Origin: an uncultured bacterium
GTDB taxonomy: Bacteria > Bipolaricaulota > Bipolaricaulia > UBA7950 > UBA9294
Direction: 5' to 3'
Assembly (NCBI GenBank): GCA_903857865.1
Contig: CAIOGO010000002.1
Coordinates: 1-64,000 of the forward strand
DNA length: 64,000 bases
In this document: positions 267 to 56,794 of the stretch, piece by piece
How positions within the stretch are numbered: the stretch's first letter is position 1
Layout of the letters: the number at the start of each line of letters is the position of its first letter
Notes under the pieces: generated by a model
What the model saw: the letters and a program-made list of their open reading frames with translations, nothing else
The model's database searches: none
What the model was told of the DNA's origin: nothing
Translations under genes and position numbers: made by a program

Positions 267-1583
267 CTAGCGCTTCCTCCGCGAGGGCGTCTTCGTGGTG
301 CTCTCGTCGGGCGTCGCAGAACCCTCAAGCAGCCAACGCCAGAGGGGCATGAAGCGGAGGGTTCCATCCATCCCAAACCACGAAGCGCGTTCCTCGCCTT
401 CCTCGGAGTCGGTCAGGACGAGCAGACTGTCGCAGCCGAGTTCGTGCGATGCTTTGAGTAGGGCGCGAACCTCGCGCGCTTTCGTCCTCGGGCTCTCGAG
501 GCTGTAGCACACCTGGATGAGCTGCGTGACGCGGACGCCCCGCTTGATGACGAAGTCGACTTCGTCGCCTTGCGCGCCCTTCCAGCTGTAGCACTCGAGT
601 TCGCCTTCAAGCTCGCGGCGGTGGAGGTCGATGGCAACGAGGTTCTCGTACAGCTTCCCACGGTCGGGGCTCGACCGGAAGCCGGTCGCAGTGACGAGGC
701 CGTTGTCGATCGCGTAGATCTTCCGATCGCCGATCGCTCGCTCACGAGCCTTGAACGAGAACCGCCGGAGCGAGAAGAAGAGGAAGGCTTCCTCCAGGTG
801 TTGGAGGTACTTCTCTGCCGTGTGGACGCTCTGGAGGCGTGTGCTGCGGATGAGGCTGTGGTACGAGTACGGCGACGCGACGTTGGCCATCAGGTGGTGG
901 GCAAGGTCCTCGAGGCTCTGTGGCGCCCGGATGCGGTGCCGGACGACGATGTCCTTGTACAGGATCGATCGTACGAGGGTCGTGAGATAGTCGCGGTGAG
1001 AGATGGCCTTGAGCATGGGCTCGGGATACCCGCCAGACTCGGCATACACCCGGAGGGCTTCGGCCTTCTCCGTGCTCGTCAAATCTCGACTCTGTGCGCG
1101 GACGGCCTCGCGGAAGCTGAACGGGAAGAGGACGATCGGCAGGTGGCGACCTGTCAGGTGTGTGGCGAGTTCGGAACTCAAGAGGTGCGCGTTGCTACCC
1201 GTGATCGTGAGGTCGCGACCTTGTCTCTGCAGTCGGTTCACGAGGAGCTCCCAGCGTGGAATGTTCTGCACTTCATCGAGGAGCAGGCGCTTCGGCCGGT
1301 CGTAGAGGGCGTCGAGAGCCGAGAGAAGGGCGTCGTAGTCGTCGAGGTTGGCAAGATGCTCGTCGTCGAAGTTGACGTAGCCGAAGCTGCCGAGGTCGCG
1401 TACTAGATGGAGCGCGAAGAATGACTTGCCGGCGCGCCGAGGGCCGAGCACGACCTTGATCAGGCTCTGAGGGAGCCGGCGGTCGGCCATGTCGCGTTCG
1501 ACGTACGTCGACTGGAGCAGCGCTTCGGCCTCGCGACGCTGGAGAAGCAGGGCATCTCTGAGAGCTTCACCCGCGACAGGCAT
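267..1583 (-). CDS. DUF4143-type AAA ATPase
   Basis: 438-residue ATPase of the DUF4143 family. The Walker A motif is 'GPRRAGKSF' and Walker B is 'RLLLDEVQNI'. A lid and winged-helix region follows, then a C-terminal restriction-endonuclease-like fold with 'GDEVDFVIKRG' and 'LIQVCYSL'. The frame is open upstream to an ATG at 1697, but the ATG at 1583 is preferred: it follows GAGG at 6 nt, and a good promoter lies between the two (-35 1646-1651, -10 1623-1628). These proteins are common, patchily distributed and of uncertain role; they have been linked to toxin-antitoxin or defence-like functions. The gene sits alone between two direct repeats. Confidence 0.85.
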   Translation of the reverse strand: MPVAGEALRDALLLQRREAEALLQSTYVERDMADRRLPQSLIKVVLGPRRAGKSFFALHLVRDLGSFGYVNFDDEHLANLDDYDALLSALDALYDRPKRLLLDEVQNIPRWELLVNRLQRQGRDLTITGSNAHLLSSELATHLTGRHLPIVLFPFSFREAVRAQSRDLTSTEKAEALRVYAESGGYPEPMLKAISHRDYLTTLVRSILYKDIVVRHRIRAPQSLEDLAHHLMANVASPYSYHSLIRSTRLQSVHTAEKYLQHLEEAFLFFSLRRFSFKARERAIGDRKIYAIDNGLVTATGFRSSPDRGKLYENLVAIDLHRRELEGELECYSWKGAQGDEVDFVIKRGVRVTQLIQVCYSLESPRTKAREVRALLKASHELGCDSLLVLTDSEEGEERASWFGMDGTLRFMPLWRWLLEGSATPDESTTKTPSRRKR

Positions 1584-1622
1584 CTCGAACCTCGTGATGC
1601 ACAAGAAGTGACATATCTGTGC

Positions 1623-1651
1623 AGTATAGTCTCGGAGACCCGTCACGCCAA
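1623..1651 (-). promoter_or_regulatory. Promoter for the DUF4143 ATPase
   Basis: On the minus strand: TTGGCG (1646-1651), 17-bp spacer, TATACT (1623-1628). The predicted start of transcription falls about 30 nt before the ATG at 1583, which supports that start over the upstream ATG. Confidence 0.55.
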
Positions 1652-1734
1652 GTCGGCGAGACGCGGGGGCTTGCGTTCCAGCAATGGACTCTTGCATCCT
1701 CTTGGCCCGATGGACGATGACGGGAGCGCCACAC

Positions 1735-2009: not shown

Positions 2010-2082
2010 CACGAGCGGCCAGAGTCGAACTGGCAACCTACTGACCGCAGGTCACCTGCTCTTCCGGTTGAGCTACGCTGGC
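2010..2082 (-). tRNA. tRNA-like gene with a non-canonical anticodon loop
   Basis: The cloverleaf is almost complete: acceptor GCCAGCG/CGCTCGT (one C-C mismatch, one G-U), D arm GCTC/GAGC with G18G19, and a perfect T arm GCCAG-TTCGACT-CTGGC. The anticodon stem GGTGA/TCAGT has a G-G mismatch. The loop reads CCTGCGG, so the anticodon position is TGC (Ala), but position 33 is C instead of the near-universal U, and the loop could close into a longer helix. No CCA is encoded. The first bases overlap the end of the CBS-domain gene on the same strand. It may be a pseudo-tRNA, a specialised tRNA or a structured 3' end. Confidence 0.6.
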
Positions 2083-2669
2083 GGTTCCGGGTCTTCGCGA
2101 AGGCGAGCCTCGAGCGCCAAGCGCAGGGCTTCGGGGTCGGCGATGCCCTGGAGTCGGAGGACTACGTCGCGGTGCGTCTCGTTCTCTCTTCGGCTGGCCA
2201 TGCTCACGACATGCACTCCGTGCTCGCGCAGCACGTCAAACGCGCGGAAGAGGTCGTCGGAGTCTTTCCGTAGCTTGATCTCCATGCGCGTCCCGACGAG
2301 TCCGATTCCCAACCCATCGGCCAGACCCCGAAGGACTTCGCTCTGGGTGATCACGCCGACTAACCGATCCCCCTCAACCACGGGCAGCAACACCAAGCGG
2401 TTGTCGAGCATGATCAGAGCCGCCTTCTCGAGCGTATCCGTCGGTTGCACCGCGAATCGGACGGGATGGGACACCGTCTCGACTGCCACCTCGTCGTCCG
2501 CAACGCCCCGCAGCGATGCGCGGGTGACGAACCCTCGCAGGCAACCGTCCTCGGATGCGATCAAGAGGAGCCCGAACCCGTGCTCCTCCATGACACGCCG
2601 AATCGTCCCCACCGTCGCCGACGGCAGGGCGGTCACCGCGTCCCGCTGCATGTGGCGCCCAACGTTCAT
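2073..2669 (-). CDS. Tandem-CBS-domain protein with C-terminal ACT-like segment (AcuB-like)
   Basis: 198 residues. Two CBS motifs span roughly residues 1-60 and 65-120 ('GFVTRASL', 'LVGVITQSEV'); such pairs usually bind adenine nucleotides and act as sensors. Residues about 125-190 look like an ACT-type regulatory domain ('GTRMEIKLRKDSDDLFRAF'), the architecture of AcuB-like proteins. The start overlaps the stop of the EF-G-like gene by 4 nt (ATGA), implying translational coupling, and the stop lies inside the downstream tRNA-like gene. A role in sensing energy state for its GTPase partner is inference. Confidence 0.8.
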   Translation of the reverse strand: MNVGRHMQRDAVTALPSATVGTIRRVMEEHGFGLLLIASEDGCLRGFVTRASLRGVADDEVAVETVSHPVRFAVQPTDTLEKAALIMLDNRLVLLPVVEGDRLVGVITQSEVLRGLADGLGIGLVGTRMEIKLRKDSDDLFRAFDVLREHGVHVVSMASRRENETHRDVVLRLQGIADPEALRLALEARLREDPEPPA

Positions 2670-4636
2670 TCTTCTTCAGCCTGAGCCTGCGCGACAATCT
2701 TCTCCTGGATATGACCAGGAACCGGTTGGTACCGCGCGAACTCCATGTGGAACGTCGCCCGCCCTTGGGTCCGCGACTTCAGGTCGAGCGCGTAGCTTTG
2801 CATCTCGGCAAGCGGCGCCTCGGCATGGATGACGGTCACTTTGCCCGCCGGGTCCATTCCCATGATCCGACCCCGCCGCCCGTTCATGTCGCTGATGATG
2901 TCGCCGGTGAACTCCTCCGGCACCCGGACGTACACGCTCATCACCGGCTCAAGAAGGCACGGCTCCGCGTTGTCGAACGCCTCGCGGAACGCACCCCTCG
3001 CCGCAAGCTTGAACGCCAACTCGGACGAGTCGACGGGGTGGAAGCTTCCGTCGTACACCGCGACGAGCACATCCGTGACCGGAAACTTGGCGAGGCTGCC
3101 CTCTTCCAGGGCCTCGAGAATGCCCTTCTCCACCCCGGGCACGTACTGGTTGGGAATCGAGGCGCCCTTGATCTCGTCGACGAACTTGAAGCCGCCCTCG
3201 CCCTTGTACGGCTCGACCCTCAGATAGACCTCTCCGAACTGCCCACGGCCTCCCGTCTGCTTCTTGTGGCGGTACTTCGCCTCCGCCTTTCTGCGAACCG
3301 TCTCCTTGTACGGGACCCTCGGCTGTCTCGTCTCCAGCGCAACGTTGTAGCGATTCTTCAGTCGCTCGATGATCACGTGCAAGTGGACATCGCCCATGCC
3401 GCGCAGCGTCAGCTCCTTGGTCACCGGGTCGCGCTCGACCACGACGGTCTTCTTCGTCGCGGCCACCTCCTTCAGGGCTGCGCTCATCTTCTCGACGTCC
3501 GCCTGAGTCTTCGGAACGATCGTCCGAGAGAACGCGGGCCGCGGGAATTGCGGGAACTTGAACGGCACCGCGTCCTGGCTCACCGCGAGCGTCGCATAGA
3601 GGACGGCGCCGTCGGCCTTCGCGATCGCCACCACCTCGCCGGCAGTCGCCGAGGAGACTCGCTTCTGCTTCGTGCCTTCGAGCGCATACAGGTCGCGAAT
3701 GTCGACCTTCCCGCCCGTTGCGGTATCGACGAGCGGCTTCCCTTCGTGGAGGGTCCCGTCGAGCACTCGGACGAACGCCAGCCGTCCGAGGTACGGGTCG
3801 TTCGCCAAGTTGAACACCACGGCTCGGCTCGGCGCGCCAGGGTTCCCGACCGCCGGCGCCGTGAGGGTGGTGAAGGCTTTCAGAAGTTGATCGACTCCCT
3901 TTTCCTGCGTCGCGCACGCACAGAGAATGGGGACGATTAGGCCGGCGCTGACTCCCTTCGCCAAGGCGGCCGCAAGCTCGGCGTCGCTGATCGGTTTCTC
4001 GTCGAGGAACTTCATCATCAACTCGTCGTCGACGGTCGCAACCTCTTCGATGAGCGACGCGCGCGAGCTCTCAGCGGCTTCGGCAAGGTCCGCCGGAACG
4101 TCCTTCTTCCCCTTGTCGCCGAAGTAGCTGGGGCGATTCGCGACGAGGTCCACGATGCCGGCGAACGTCGCGCCGGATCCGATCGGGATCTGGATGGGCA
4201 GCAGTTTCGCCTCGAAGTGACTTCGCAAGGCATCGACTGCGGCGTCGAAGTCGACGTTCTCCTTGTCCATGTGGTTGACGAGAATGGCCGTCGGGTACTT
4301 GCCTCCGCTCGCCACTTCCCACACCCGTTCCGTACCCACTTCGACGGCCTTCTCCGCACTCACCACAAGGAAGGTCAGATCGGCGACCGGGATCGCCTTG
4401 TACATCTCCTCAAGGAACTCGTCGCCGCCGGGCGTATCGAGGAGCGTGATCGACACTCCGTCGACCTGGAACGCGCCGATCCCCATATCGATCGTGCAGC
4501 CGCGCTCTTTCTCCTCCTGCGACGCGTCGAACAAGATCTGATCCTTAACGCCCGCCCGCTTCATCAGCGCCAAAGCGAGCGTCGTCTTGCCGCAGCCGGA
4601 ATGCCCTGCCAGGCAGATAGTCCGCGCTTGCCCCAT
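2666..4636 (-). CDS. Elongation factor G-like translational GTPase (EF-G paralogue)
   Basis: 656 residues with the EF-G domain order: G domain, domain II, then III-V. G1 is 'GHSGCGKTT' (residues 11-19), G3 is 'DTPGGDE' where EF-G has DTPGH, and G4 is 'NHMDK' where EF-G has NKxD. These changes set it apart from the canonical fusA at 37339-39414. The family is found beside normal EF-G in many bacteria and its role is poorly defined. The start at 4636 follows AAGGGGG at good spacing; the frame stays open further upstream but runs through the promoter (4675-4703). First gene of a unit with the CBS protein and the tRNA-like gene. Confidence 0.88.
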   Translation of the reverse strand: MGQARTICLAGHSGCGKTTLALALMKRAGVKDQILFDASQEEKERGCTIDMGIGAFQVDGVSITLLDTPGGDEFLEEMYKAIPVADLTFLVVSAEKAVEVGTERVWEVASGGKYPTAILVNHMDKENVDFDAAVDALRSHFEAKLLPIQIPIGSGATFAGIVDLVANRPSYFGDKGKKDVPADLAEAAESSRASLIEEVATVDDELMMKFLDEKPISDAELAAALAKGVSAGLIVPILCACATQEKGVDQLLKAFTTLTAPAVGNPGAPSRAVVFNLANDPYLGRLAFVRVLDGTLHEGKPLVDTATGGKVDIRDLYALEGTKQKRVSSATAGEVVAIAKADGAVLYATLAVSQDAVPFKFPQFPRPAFSRTIVPKTQADVEKMSAALKEVAATKKTVVVERDPVTKELTLRGMGDVHLHVIIERLKNRYNVALETRQPRVPYKETVRRKAEAKYRHKKQTGGRGQFGEVYLRVEPYKGEGGFKFVDEIKGASIPNQYVPGVEKGILEALEEGSLAKFPVTDVLVAVYDGSFHPVDSSELAFKLAARGAFREAFDNAEPCLLEPVMSVYVRVPEEFTGDIISDMNGRRGRIMGMDPAGKVTVIHAEAPLAEMQSYALDLKSRTQGRATFHMEFARYQPVPGHIQEKIVAQAQAEEE

Positions 4637-4674
4637 GTCAGTCCCCCTTGGGTGAATGGAAAGAATTCGTCGGC

Positions 4675-4703
4675 AGTATATCCACGGCCCGAATCGATAG
4701 CAA
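4675..4703 (-). promoter_or_regulatory. Promoter of the EF-G-like operon
   Basis: TTGCTA (4698-4703), 17-bp spacer, TATACT (4675-4680) on the minus strand, about 40 nt before the EF-G-like start codon. Confidence 0.65.
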
Positions 4704-4883: not shown

Positions 4884-6500
4884 ATGTCGACTCGCCTACT
4901 GCTCGGCGATGAGGCACTCGCCCAAGGCGCCATCGATGCCGGACTGTCCGGCGCGTTCGGGTATCCAGGCACGCCGTCGACGGAGATCACGGAGTACGTC
5001 CAGAGAAGCCCCGAAGCCCGAAGCGGCGCCGTCCGCAGCCACTGGACCGCGAACGAGAAGACGGCGGTCGAGACGGCGCTTGGGATGTGCTATGCGGGGA
5101 AACGGGCCATGGCAAGCATGAAGCACGTCGGACTCAACGTCGCGGCCGACCCCTTCATCAATGCCGCCATCTCCGGCACGAACGGCGGACTCCTCATCAA
5201 CGTCGCCGATGACCCGTCCATGCATTCCTCGCAGAACGAACAAGACTCGCGCCTCTACACCGAGATCGCCCTCGTGCCGTGCATCGAGCCGGCGAACCAG
5301 CAGGAGGCCTACGACGTTCCGGCGTACGCGTTTGACTTCTCCGAGCGACACCGCATCCCCGTCTTGGTCCGCCTCACGACGCGGCTCGCCCACTCGCGCG
5401 CCCCGGTCACATTGGGGTCAAAGCGCCCGCAGAACGAGCTCTCCGCACCAACGGATCGGGAGCGATTCATCCTTCTGCCCTCGAATGCCCGACGCAGCTA
5501 CGATCGCCTCATCCGGCAACAACGCGACTTCCTCCGCGAGAGCGAGGCCAGTCCGTTCAACCGCCTCGTCGAGGGAACCGATACGTCTCTCGGCGTGATT
5601 GCCTGCGGCATCGCGTACAACTACGTCCTGGAGGTCACCGGCGGTGCCCCACGGTTCCCGGTCCTCAAGGTGGGTCAGTACCCACTTCCTCTGGCCGCCG
5701 TCGAACGACTTCTCGCCCAGTGTTCCGAGATCCTTGTCCTCGAGGAGGGGTATCCCTACGTGGAGTCAAAACTCCTCGGAAGCCCGCCCCGACCCTCTCC
5801 TGTGATTCGGGGGCGCCTCTCCGGCGACGTCCCGCGAACCGGCGAGCTCTCGCCACAAAGCGTCGCGTCCGCCCTTGGATTTCCGGAACTACAGGGCCTT
5901 CCGGCATCGGGCGCCCCGGTCTCTCGGCCGCCGGCCCTCTGCCCGGGGTGCCCGCACGCTGACACCTGCCGGGTCCTGAACGACGCGCTGGCGACGCGCC
6001 GCGAGACCGGCCGCGTCTTCTCGGACATCGGGTGCTACACCCTTGGAGCGCTCCCGCCCTACGGCGCCATCGACACCTGCATCGAGATGGGCGCCTCGAT
6101 CACGATGGCCAAGGGCGCCTCGGATGCCGGCCTGCGTCCCGCCATCGCCCTGATCGGGGACTCGACGTTCGCCCACTCCGGCATGACCGGCCTCCTCGAC
6201 TGCGTGAACGAGAACAGCGACGTGACCATCGTGATTGTCGACAACTCCACCGTGGCGATGACGGGAGGTCAGACATCGTCGGCCGAGCGTCGTCTCGTCG
6301 CAATCTGCGAGGGCATCGGCGTCCAGCCCGCGCACCTCCGCGTGATCGAGCCGCTTCCCGGACGCCACGCGGAGAACGTGGCGATACTGGAGGAGGAGAT
6401 CTCTCATGCCGGCCCTTCGGTCATCATCGCACGGCGCGAGTGCATCCAGACCCTGAAGCGGGGCTCGCGCCGCCCGGCCGACAAAGGAGGAGGGAAATGA
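4884..6500 (+). CDS. iorA: Indolepyruvate:ferredoxin oxidoreductase, alpha subunit, lacking the ferredoxin domain
   Basis: 538 residues. The N-terminal pyrimidine-binding domain begins 'LLLGDEALAQGA' and has 'FGYPGTPSTEI'. The C-terminal thiamine-diphosphate domain has 'CPGCPHADTC', 'DIGCYTLG', 'GDSTFAHSG' and 'VDNSTVAMTGGQ'. With IorB it converts aryl pyruvates plus CoA to aryl-acyl-CoA, reducing ferredoxin, in anaerobic amino-acid degradation. The usual IorA ends in a domain binding two 4Fe-4S clusters; here the protein stops in 'RRPADKGGGK' with no cysteine clusters. A strong AGGAGG precedes the ATG, and the stop overlaps iorB by 4 nt. Confidence 0.9.
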   Translation: MSTRLLLGDEALAQGAIDAGLSGAFGYPGTPSTEITEYVQRSPEARSGAVRSHWTANEKTAVETALGMCYAGKRAMASMKHVGLNVAADPFINAAISGTNGGLLINVADDPSMHSSQNEQDSRLYTEIALVPCIEPANQQEAYDVPAYAFDFSERHRIPVLVRLTTRLAHSRAPVTLGSKRPQNELSAPTDRERFILLPSNARRSYDRLIRQQRDFLRESEASPFNRLVEGTDTSLGVIACGIAYNYVLEVTGGAPRFPVLKVGQYPLPLAAVERLLAQCSEILVLEEGYPYVESKLLGSPPRPSPVIRGRLSGDVPRTGELSPQSVASALGFPELQGLPASGAPVSRPPALCPGCPHADTCRVLNDALATRRETGRVFSDIGCYTLGALPPYGAIDTCIEMGASITMAKGASDAGLRPAIALIGDSTFAHSGMTGLLDCVNENSDVTIVIVDNSTVAMTGGQTSSAERRLVAICEGIGVQPAHLRVIEPLPGRHAENVAILEEEISHAGPSVIIARRECIQTLKRGSRRPADKGGGK

Positions 6501-7078
6501 AACGCGACATCATCCTTGCCGGCGTGGGAGGCCAGGGCTTGCTCTCGATCGCCGCCGTCCTTGGCGACGCCGCCCTCGGGCTCGGCCTGCACCTTCGCCA
6601 GTGCGAGGTGCACGGTATGGCCCAGCGAGGCGGCGTGGTCCAGAGCCACATCCGGTACAGCGACGTCCCCCTCTACTCCGACCTCGTGCGCGAGGGCACC
6701 GCAGACCTCATTCTGTCGCTCGAGCCGATGGAGAGCCTGCGCTACCTGCCGTTCCTTCGCCCCGACGGGGCGCTCGTCACGAACTCCGTCCCGGTCAAGA
6801 ACATCCCCGACTACCCCGATCTCGACTGCATCCTCGGCGAGATCCGCCGCCTCCCGCGTCACCGCATCGTCGATGCAGCGGTCGTGGCCGAACAGGCCGG
6901 ATCCCCTCAGTGCGCCAACCTCGTCGTGCTCGGCGCGGCGACCCCGTTCCTCGGGCTCGCCGAAGACTCGTTGGAGGCCGGCATCCGTTCCGTTTTCGCC
7001 GGGAAGGACCCCCGCATCGTCGAGACAAACCTGCGCGGCTTCCACCTTGGGGTCGAGGCCGCGCGCCGCGCCTCCTAG
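6497..7078 (+). CDS. iorB: Indolepyruvate:ferredoxin oxidoreductase, beta subunit
   Basis: 193 residues of the pyruvate/ketoisovalerate oxidoreductase gamma-type fold. It opens with 'ILAGVGGQGLLSIAAVLG' and has 'VHGMAQRGGVVQSHIR', both diagnostic of IorB. The ATG at 6497 overlaps the iorA stop (ATGA) and follows AAAGGAGGAGG; longer readings of this frame run back through iorA and are not the gene. It completes the alpha-beta enzyme. Confidence 0.92.
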   Translation: MKRDIILAGVGGQGLLSIAAVLGDAALGLGLHLRQCEVHGMAQRGGVVQSHIRYSDVPLYSDLVREGTADLILSLEPMESLRYLPFLRPDGALVTNSVPVKNIPDYPDLDCILGEIRRLPRHRIVDAAVVAEQAGSPQCANLVVLGAATPFLGLAEDSLEAGIRSVFAGKDPRIVETNLRGFHLGVEAARRAS

Positions 7079-37338: not shown

Positions 37339-39414
37339 TCAGTACCCTCTGCTCTTGACGATCTTCTCTCGCAACCCTTCCGGGACCATCTCGTAGCGAG
37401 CCACTCGAAGCGAGTAGGTCGCCCTTCCCTGGGTCAAGGAGCGCAACCGCGTTGCATACCCAAACGTCTCGGCCAGCGGAATGCAAACCACGAGGATCTG
37501 CACTGTCTCCAGCGACCGAAGCATGTGGATCTCTCCACGCCTGCGCGCCAGGTCCTCCATCACTTCACCCAAGTACTCGGCAGGCGTGATCACTTCTCCC
37601 TCCATGATCGGCTCGAGAAGCTCAAACACACCCGCGCCGTACGCTCTGTGCAGCGCAGCAGATGTGGCTGCACGAAACGCAAGCTCGGACGAGTCTACCG
37701 GATGAAAAGATCCACCGATAACGGCGGCTCCGATGTCGGCCAGAGGATATCCCGCGAGTGGACCGTTTGTCAACGTCCCGCGCAACGCGCTTTCGATGGC
37801 CCCCTCGTACGCCCTTGGGATCTCCTCCGGCTTGGCGTCAAAGCGGAATGTGATCCCGCTCTCCCTCGGCAGCGGCTCAAGCCGCAGAATGACGTGCCCG
37901 AACTGCCCCCGCCCGGCGGCTTGCCTCGCGAAGCGGTCCTCAACGACCACCGGCTCGCGGAGCGTTTCGCGGTAGGCCACCTGCGGCTTACCCACGCTCA
38001 CGTGGACGTGCAGATCCTCGCGAAGGCGGCGCACGAGCACGTCCAAGTGCAGCTCTCCCATACCCCCGATGATGATCTGATCCGTCGTCTCGTCGGTCCG
38101 GACATGGAAGGTCGGGTCTTCCTGCGCCAGCTTCGTCAATCCGTCCATGAGTTCCGGCAGTTCCGCTTCCGTGCGAGGCTCCACGGCCGCAAACACGACC
38201 GGATCTGGGAATTCGATCTTCTCGAGGAGGATTGGCGCGCTTTTGTCGCAGAGCGTGTCCCCGGTCGAGACATCCTGGGAGCCCACAATGGCCACGATGT
38301 CTCCCGCCGTCGCCTCTTCCAAGGCAAGCCGGCGGTTCGCATGCATTCGAAACAGCTTCGTGATCCGCAGTCCCTTCCCCGTCGAGCTGTTAAGGGCGTG
38401 CCCGCCTGCCTTCATCGTTCCGGAGTAGATGCGGAGGTACACCAGACGGCCGGCATACGCATCGGAGGTAACCTTGAACGCAAGCGCGGCGAGCGGAGCG
38501 CTCGGATCGGCCGGCCGTTCGTCCTTGCCGTCGGCGCTCTGGACGGGAGGAACGTCAACTGGCGACGGGAGGTAGCGGACGACGGCATCGAGCAGCGGCT
38601 GCACGCCGATCTTCTGAAAGGCCGATCCCCCGACGACGGGGATAACCCCGTGGCCGATGCATGCGCACCGGAGCCCAGCGTGGAAGTCCTCCGGACGAAC
38701 ATCTCGCCCATCGAGAAAGGCCTCCATCACTCGGTCGTCGAATTCGGCGACGCGCTCGATGGCCAGATCCCGGTACAACTCCACCTGGTCACGAAGAGCT
38801 TCCGGGACCGGCCCACGCGTCATGGCGGTGCCTTGGCTCTCGCCGTCCCAGATGACCAGCTCACGGGCCAGGAGATCCACGATTCCGATGAGGCGGCGAT
38901 CGCCGTCCCGGTAGGGGAAGCTCAGCGGAACCGTGCGCACGCCGAGCCGAGCCTCGATCATCGCGAGGGTATCGGTGTAGCTTGCTTCCGCGCGATCAAG
39001 CTTGTTGACGAACGCAATCCGCGGGGTCTTGTAGCGGTCCGCCTGCCGCCAGACGGTCTCCGATTGAGACTCGACCATCTCCACGCCCGAGAACAGCACT
39101 ACGGCGCCGTCAAGCACGCGCAGGCTTCGCTCCACCTCGGCAGTGAAGTCGACATGCCCCGGTGTGTCGATGATGTTGATCTGGTGCTCGAGCCACTGGC
39201 AGGTCGTCGCCGCGGACGTGATCGTGATCCCGCGCTCCCGCTCCTGCGCCATCCAGTCCATCTCGGTGTCACCCTCATGGACTTCGCCCATCTTGTGGAT
39301 CTGGCCGGTGTAGAAAAGGATGCGCTCCGTCGTCGTGGTCTTTCCAGCATCGATGTGTGCCATGATGCCGATGTTGCGCACCCTACGGAGGTCGGACGCA
39401 CGCGCAGGCACCAT
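37339..39414 (-). CDS. fusA: Elongation factor G
   Basis: 691 residues. G1 'AHIDAGKTT' (19-27), switch region '[20 protein letters not shown]', G3 'DTPGHVDF', G4 'NKLDR' and domain IV '[20 protein letters not shown]', followed by domain V. Catalyses ribosomal translocation. The Met at 39414 begins the conserved N-terminus; the frame is open for 32 further codons into rpsG, which is not expected. Canonical copy, in contrast to the paralogue at 2666-4636. Confidence 0.96.
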
Positions 39415-55706: not shown

Positions 55707-55779
55707 AGCGGACAGCGGGATTCGAACCCGCGACCCTCAGCTTGGGAAGCTGATGCTCTACCAACTGAGCTATGCCCGC
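55707..55779 (-). tRNA. tRNA-Gly (CCC)
   Basis: Complete cloverleaf: acceptor GCGGGCA/TGTCCGC, D arm GCTC/GAGC with GG, anticodon loop TTCCCAA (CCC, glycine), perfect T arm CGGG-type stem with TTCGAAT loop. No encoded CCA. A promoter lies 13 nt upstream. Confidence 0.95.
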
Positions 55780-55791
55780 AACACGGGAAGC

Positions 55792-55820
55792 AGTATAACG
55801 ACCATCCGATGGCGAGTCCA
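55792..55820 (-). promoter_or_regulatory. Promoter of tRNA-Gly
   Basis: TGGACT (55815-55820), 17-bp spacer, TATACT (55792-55797) on the minus strand; transcription would begin about 6 nt before the mature 5' end. Confidence 0.6.
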
Positions 55821-55874
55821 CCGTAGGACGTTCACCTTGCCCAAGGGCCGCCGAACGCCTCAAAAGGGGGAAGT

Positions 55875-56225
55875 ATGGCGGTCGTTCAGGAGCCGGACTT
55901 CGGGGCAGCGAGGGACCTCTTCGCTCTCTACTGCAAGGCGAAGGGGCTGTCTGTTCGCACTCTGGAGACGTATCTCGCTTCCATTGACGAGTTGGGAACG
56001 TTCCTCGCGCAGTCAGACTGTGGGGACGGCATTCCATTGCCCCAGGACATCCGAGCGTTCGTCGCGTCTCTCCTCGACCGCTCGCTCGCCAGGACCACCA
56101 TCAGCATCAGGCTTCGTTCCGTACGCTGCTTCTTCAACTTCCTCGCCCGTGAGGAGATCATCGCACAAGCCCCATGGCAAGCGTCGAGATCCCAAGGTTG
56201 CCGGCAAGGTACCCGGAGGTCCTGA
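55875..56225 (+). pseudogene. Tyrosine recombinase, N-terminal (core-binding) fragment
   Basis: 116 residues. 'LFALYCKAKGLSVRTLETYL' to 'RSVRCFFNFLAREEIIAQAP' is the SAM-like core-binding domain of XerC/D-type integrases. After 'APWQ' the frame loses similarity and ends; the expected continuation ('...MASVEIPRLP') is in the next frame from 56174. One inserted or deleted base near 56165-56175 would rejoin the halves. Confidence 0.8.
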
Positions 56226-56794
56226 CGGAGGCTGAGATCAAGGCGATCTTGGCTGTGACCCGGCAGAGGACCTGGACCGGAACGAGGAACCGAACCATGC
56301 TCCTGATGCTTCTGGATACCGGAGTGAGGCTTGGCGAGCTGATAGGTCTCGACCTTGGTGATCTTGACCTCCATGCGGCGAGGGTCCGCGTTCGCAATGG
56401 AAAGGGCGAAAGGGAAAGGTACGTCTTCGTTGGGCGCACGCTTCTCCGCTCCCTCAGGACGTGGCTCGACACCCGTGGCACGGGACAGGAATCCTGGCCG
56501 CTGTTCATGACGCGTGGGGGTGAGCGACTTGATCGCCGAAACGTCCAACGGATCTTGGAGCGGATTTCCGCCAAGGCGGGACTCGCAGCAGGGCGAGTCA
56601 GTCCGCACCGCCTCCGGCGCACCTACGCGACGCACTACATCATCAACGGCAGCGATCCCTTCAGTCTGCAACGCATTCTGGGCCACTCCGACATCAAGAC
56701 GACAGTGATTTACGTCAACCTTGCCGGGGTTGGACTGAGAGAGGCACACGCGAAGGCGAGTCCGGTGGATCGGGTGCTGTCGAGCGAGGCGTAG
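56174..56794 (+). pseudogene. Tyrosine recombinase, C-terminal catalytic fragment
   Basis: 206 residues with the full catalytic set: R52 ('TGVRLGEL'), K77 ('RNGKGER'), H145 and R148 ('SPHRLRRT'), H171 ('LGHSD') and nucleophile Y180 ('VIYVNL'). The first ATG is inside the end of the upstream fragment, with no good ribosome site. The catalytic part looks undamaged, so either the gene broke recently, the sequence has an error, or the parts are joined by frameshifting or used as two chains. Confidence 0.8.

Follow-up and report, generated by a model that had tools for sequence, protein, structure and literature searches.

A conserved, translationally coupled pair of an EFG II-type EF-G paralogue and a CBS-ACT protein in Bipolaricaulota

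Near one end of a 64,000-nucleotide stretch of a Bipolaricaulota MAG (hereafter, the window), a translation GTPase, a protein with CBS domains and a tRNA-like gene lie on one strand and overlap, which raises the question of whether they work together and, if so, at what. The sequence-only reading of this DNA had proposed a translation-stress or ribosome-tuning module of three parts, with the CBS protein as its nucleotide sensor. The GTPase gene (positions 4636-2666, minus strand, as are the other features of this locus) starts with ATG at 4636, stops at 2668-2666 and encodes an EF-G paralogue of 656 amino acids, EF-G2, with five of the five EF-G domains (Pfam EFG_IV, EFG_C, GTP_EFTU, EFG_III and EF-G_D2). 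Motif alignment bears out the altered G3 and G4 motifs described previously: G3 reads DTPGG (4424-4438), with Gly in place of the catalytic His (H87 in Thermus thermophilus), and G4 reads NHMD (4265-4276), with His in place of the Lys of NKxD; G1, the Asp of G4 and the tip of domain IV are all preserved. The ATGA overlap that joins this gene to the tandem-CBS/ACT-like gene was likewise found, at 2669-2666, as was the stop codon (TAG) of the CBS gene within the same-strand tRNA-like gene at 2082-2009. Upstream of EF-G2, a weak sigma-70-like promoter candidate (TTGCTA-17-TATACT, 4675-4703) matches at 9 of 12 positions, with 0.4 such matches expected by chance in the scanned region.

The same genome has two more EF-G genes, a canonical one on another contig (C10) and one at window positions 37354-39270. 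In the latter, the genome's third EF-G homologue, the motifs DTPGH and NKLD are canonical and loop I of domain IV is altered (ARQAAGRGQ). Upstream of EF-G2, at 4884-7078, there is a divergent gene pair resembling indolepyruvate ferredoxin oxidoreductase subunits; the second gene of this pair has no Pfam match, and the first also adjoins EF-G2 in several relatives from family f1.

Among the relatives used for comparison, which are mostly incomplete MAGs, EF-G2 and the CBS gene lie next to each other in all 47 genomes in which both were found (31 in family f1, 2 in f2, 9 in f4 and 5 in f6). Of 35 loci measured for spacing, 27 have −4 nt, 5 have −11, 1 has −22 and 2 have +6, and the 4-nt overlap of the window recurs in all 26 f1 and f2 loci measured. 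Both genes are under purifying selection, as judged by dN/dS values of about 0.1-0.2 (~0.10-0.22 for EF-G2 and ~0.14-0.23 for the CBS gene). Thus, EF-G2 and the CBS-ACT protein are supported as a true, conserved and translationally coupled pair. In families f3, f5, f7 and f8, an EF-G2 orthologue is present and an adjacent CBS gene is absent, so that a CBS partner is not needed for the work of EF-G2 in these families. In a tree built from Bipolaricaulota sequences and T. thermophilus EF-G1 only, the nine unlinked EF-G2 proteins of these four families form one clade (support 100/99), and the CBS-linked proteins group together, with support of 100/97 for f1, f2 and f4 but a weak 82/42 when f6 is included; given this separation, a single gain or a single loss of the CBS linkage is enough. 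When 84,980 genomes were scanned with a single peptide pattern, which missed every f4 and f6 relative, 24 loci were detected, nearly all of them titled Bipolaricaulota/Acetothermia or unnamed bacterium. The reading that we favor, with a rough probability of 0.45, is that of an ancient operon in which a hydrolysis-impaired alternative EF-G of the EFG II subfamily would be regulated by a dedicated CBS-ACT adaptor derived from AcuB.

The CBS gene (2669-2073) encodes a protein of 198 amino acids with two CBS domains (Pfam CBS, E = 4e-19) followed by an ACT-like C-terminal domain. The AlphaFold model has a pLDDT of 90 and a pTM of only 0.62, so that the orientation of the CBS part relative to the ACT domain is uncertain. 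In a Foldseek search of this model against the PDB, AcuB took ranks 1-17 and 19 (best match 9s52, E = 5e-18, TM-score 0.63) and TTHA0829 took rank 18; a CBS profile run against the PDB matched 5awe (E = 9e-28). Fold and length speak for the view that the protein is an AcuB-type sensor of adenylates or Ap4A serving metabolism or protein acetylation, with EF-G2 as an operon-mate only; AcuB itself senses AMP, ATP and Ap4A (PMC13121692, PMC13039410). However, Arg33, His34, Arg51 and Asp52 of AcuB are replaced in nearly all of the 21 EF-G2-linked CBS proteins: position 33 is mostly Gly, Ser or Ala (Arg in 1/21), His34 gives way to Leu, Ile or Val, and Asp52 is found in none. Thr at the CBS2 site is present in 18 of the 21, and at position 122, an adenine-nucleotide residue (Asp122) in AcuB, 15 have Glu or Asp. 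The unlinked AcuB-like proteins, from the CBS-less sister families and from f9, still have both Asp residues that bind ribose, along with the Arg pair or an equivalent of it, as well as an inter-CBS stretch that is missing from the linked proteins. Because the AcuB residues are lost in the linked proteins and retained in the unlinked ones, the linked CBS protein is, as judged by its residues, a specialized AcuB relative and no typical adenylate sensor. We therefore rejected its assignment as a canonical AcuB nucleotide sensor, and the 'nucleotide sensor' of the sequence-only reading finds no support. An AcuB-type sensor with metabolic duties would also leave the strict coupling to EF-G2 unexplained, and we regard this explanation as unlikely.

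Carrying about the same low probability is the proposal that the CBS-ACT protein resembles the archaeal CBS proteins in binding the ribosome, for hibernation or protection, with EF-G2 loading, clearing or restarting resting ribosomes. The CBS modules of archaeal ribosome factors (9znf, a 70S ribosome complex, and 9sr9) are among the better PDB profile matches, the archaeal factors HibA and Dri use CBS modules on the ribosome (PMC13324472), and in relatives, the EF-G2/CBS operon adjoins tRNA-tuf genes. However, HibA has a four-CBS module and Dri has two modules, and such chains were matched only locally, whereas the window protein consists of one CBS pair plus an ACT domain, with AcuB as the full-length fold match; the archaeal matches reflect common CBS domains rather than orthology.

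We compared EF-G2 and its relatives at the positions diagnostic of the EFG II subfamily (Margus et al. 2011, PMC3150367), numbered as in T. thermophilus EF-G1. At the type I positions, Gly19 is present in 49/49, Leu28 in 48/49, Gly360 in 50/50 and Lys379 in 50/50 of the relatives, compared with Ala, Val, Ala and Gly, respectively, in FusA of the same genome; at the type II positions, Lys498 and Lys499 are each present in 50/50, Glu543 in 46/50 and Gly633 in 50/50. Two positions depart from this pattern in part: at position 64 (G2), Ser replaces Thr in 35 of 49 relatives, but the window EF-G2 has Thr, and at position 316 (domain II), Leu occurs in 41 of 50, versus the Thr expected for EFG II. 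By most of its diagnostic residues, EF-G2 belongs to EFG II. The overall score of EF-G2 is higher against T. thermophilus EF-G1 than against the EFG II structure 1WDT, and such a score test of EFG I against EFG II is uninformative. The NCBIfam model NF009381 was tried as an EFG II marker and rejected as unspecific; normal FusA scores higher.

His87 is lost in every EF-G2 relative, being replaced by Gly, Leu or Ala in CBS-linked proteins and by Phe in unlinked ones. Lys138 of NKxD is lost in 38 of the 40 CBS-linked proteins, compared with Lys or Arg in 8 of the 9 unlinked ones, and the G3 Asp (D83) is lost in all seven f4 proteins. Kept are the P-loop, the NKxD Asp and the domain IV tip loops YRHKKQ[ST]GG[RH]GQ and H-VDSSE. 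This residue pattern fits a translocase with weak or no hydrolysis. Since T. thermophilus EFG II retains intrinsic GTPase activity (PMC3150367), the NKxD and His changes alone are no proof of GTPase loss. The general loss of the catalytic His and the loss of the G3 Asp in f4 would also be compatible with an EF-G2 that has degenerated into a regulator and does not translocate, such as a decoy or a ribosome-occupying factor, of which the CBS protein would be a subunit; the preserved domain IV loops and the low dN/dS, which point to work in the decoding site, make this improbable.

The tRNA-like gene was called tRNA-Ala(UGC) by ARAGORN and scored 41.3 bits (E = 1e-7) with the Rfam tRNA model. The tRNA-Ala identity was rejected: the best match is tRNA-Thr(UGU), with 90% identity over 69 nt (homologous body 2082-2014), after which the sequence diverges exactly where a copy in the sister genome G001 diverges, and the genome has an intact tRNA-Ala(UGC) on C10. 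The acceptor and anticodon stems are broken or mismatched, U33 has become C33 and the anticodon has changed from UGU to UGC. Compared with G001 and another relative, G002, the window lacks the tRNA promoter, the intergenic region and the original 3' end of the CBS gene, and these losses account for the position of the CBS stop codon inside the tRNA relic. In relatives, namely f4, f6, f5 and most f1 loci with enough flanking DNA, the pair is followed by a tRNA-Thr(UGU)-Tyr-Thr(GGU)-tuf-Trp cluster; no such cluster was found near the pair in f2 or in genus g3. A TTGACN-17-TACAAT-like promoter lies directly upstream of the first tRNA of the cluster in relatives, and tRNA-Thr-Tyr-Thr-tuf is thus a transcription unit of its own. 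Of the three-part reading, the EF-G2/CBS pair is supported and the tRNA as a functional part is not. On this comparison, what remains of the tRNA-like gene is a leftover of the tRNA-Thr-Tyr-Thr-tuf operon, outside the EF-G2/CBS unit. An intact Thr-Tyr-Thr cluster is present on contig C5 of the same genome, for which no end overlap with the contig of the window was found. A single translation-stress module of EF-G2, CBS protein and tRNA-like RNA is therefore largely refuted and retains very little probability: the shared strand, the overlaps and the tRNA-Thr cluster next to the pair in many relatives speak for it, but that cluster is separately promoted and is missing beside the pair in f2 and g3, and the window copy is a promoterless, broken relic at a probable mobile-element junction, with intact Thr(UGU) and Ala(UGC) genes elsewhere.

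The tRNA-like gene is followed by TGTCAAAGACCG (1970-1981), an element-end sequence that recurs at this position in G001 and, from another genus, G031, where elements are inserted in this tRNA as well; the pattern is short, with 0.34 chance matches expected in the window at one mismatch, and the evidence is its shared position by the tRNA. In G001, a ~9-kb element encoding a tyrosine recombinase (Phage_integrase) and a D5 primase lies between the CBS gene and the tRNA cluster, bounded by exact 96-nt copies of tRNA-Thr together with its −10 region (L100, 7900-7995 and 16816-16911), and G002 represents the empty site. The window shows no more than the tRNA copy and one element end, and the contig ends 2 kb further on. 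We infer that an integrative element entered tRNA-Thr(UGU) and broke the window's copy. The G001 element carries the 5' part of the tRNA plus the −10 region, so that the downstream tRNA-tuf operon keeps a promoter after insertion. Integrative elements more usually restore the 3' part of a tRNA.

Beside the tRNA relic, an AAA_14/DUF4143 ATPase gene (267-1697, minus strand), assigned to the PADLOC candidate defence family PDC-S01 (E = 1.5e-97), is plausibly element cargo. Elsewhere in the window (55707-56794), a tyrosine recombinase with 44% identity to the G001 element integrase is found beside a tRNA-Gly(CCC) gene; it is probably broken, because the coding region falls into two frames (55875-56225 and 56174-56794). 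On contig C5 (L094, 11665-18001), an HKD+SNF2 helicase (PADLOC C3a139) next to the intact tRNA-Thr cluster, followed by a long DNA-methyltransferase-like ORF, likely forms a defence island.

A further member of the operon in relatives is a UPF0047/YjbQ gene (Pfam E = 3e-23; TIGR00149 score over the cut-off), located 3' of the CBS gene or directly 3' of EF-G2. Families f4 and f6 have it there, as do most f1 genera and members of f3, f5, f7 and f8; loci across the class in which it lies directly downstream of one or the other include L132, L135, L136, L137, L138, L139 and L113. At the EF-G2/CBS locus, the gene is absent in the window's own genus (g1) and in g13. The association of EF-G2 with UPF0047 is deeper than that with the CBS gene, given that UPF0047 also follows EF-G2 in the CBS-less families. 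We found no settled function for UPF0047 in the literature.

Under the favored reading, an ancient operon of a hydrolysis-impaired EFG II protein and its AcuB-derived regulator, the CBS-ACT protein would descend from an AcuB-type adaptor and would have given up the adenylate site. It could bind EF-G2, probably through the ACT domain, by analogy with the binding of AcuC by AcuB, and this binding may set when EF-G2, as a slow or low-GTP translocase, comes into play. The most plausible occasion is energy limitation, for which the Bacteroides EF-G2 is the studied precedent. The more specific proposal that an EF-G has a dedicated regulatory subunit in the CBS-ACT protein, which would switch the hydrolysis-impaired translocase on or off by direct binding, is possible but doubtful. 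If true, it would make the CBS-ACT protein a kind of EF-G regulatory partner that we did not find in the literature consulted; our search for work linking CBS domains to EF-G, or on EF-G in Bipolaricaulota, returned nothing useful. EFG II is the most numerous group of EF-G duplicates in bacteria (PMC3150367); with a conserved coupled partner, along with UPF0047, a set of two or three proteins becomes available for joint work on ribosomes. The lineages also order the events: the catalytic His is missing from every one of them, the CBS gene occurs in a single clade, and within that clade some branches have lost the G4 or G3 residues.

Among the known systems, AcuB of Bacillus and Geobacillus and TTHA0829 (PDB 5awe) share the CBS-CBS-ACT architecture and fold with the window protein. 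In AcuB, the CBS pair senses adenylates and Ap4A (PMC13121692, PMC13039410) and AcuC is bound mainly via the ACT domain (PMC13039410). Unlike AcuB, the window-type protein is devoid of R33, H34, R51 and D52, and the neighbors in the loci examined are EF-G2 and UPF0047, with no acuA or acuC; unlike in TTHA0829, the inter-CBS linker of the EF-G2-linked protein is about 15 residues shorter. The archaeal hibernation factors HibA and Dri are similar in that CBS domains are tied to translation, and differ in their four-CBS modules, the added HPF/RaiA domain of HibA and the lack of ACT, whereas the window protein is bacterial and has two CBS domains only. The Bacteroides EF-G2 is, likewise, a paralogue that coexists with a normal EF-G; it reportedly has no GTPase activity and acts when carbon is limiting: fusA2 is described as rising 238-fold on carbon limitation while fusA drops (PMC6989115), and translocation without GTP hydrolysis is reported (Han 2023, cited in PMC12775393). 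In the parts of these accounts consulted, no CBS partner is mentioned and regulation is transcriptional (BT4338). By residues, EF-G2 resembles EFG II (T. thermophilus EF-G-2, PDB 1WDT), with the P-loop Gly and Leu, the domain II Gly and Lys, the Lys-Lys in domain IV loop I and, in most relatives, the relaxed G2 motif RxxSI in common. However, the G4 Lys is lost in most CBS-linked EF-G2 proteins, although G4 is reported to be conserved in EFG II, and whereas conserved genome context (the str operon) is described for EFG I (PMC3150367), the EF-G2 analyzed here has a conserved context and a dedicated partner of its own.
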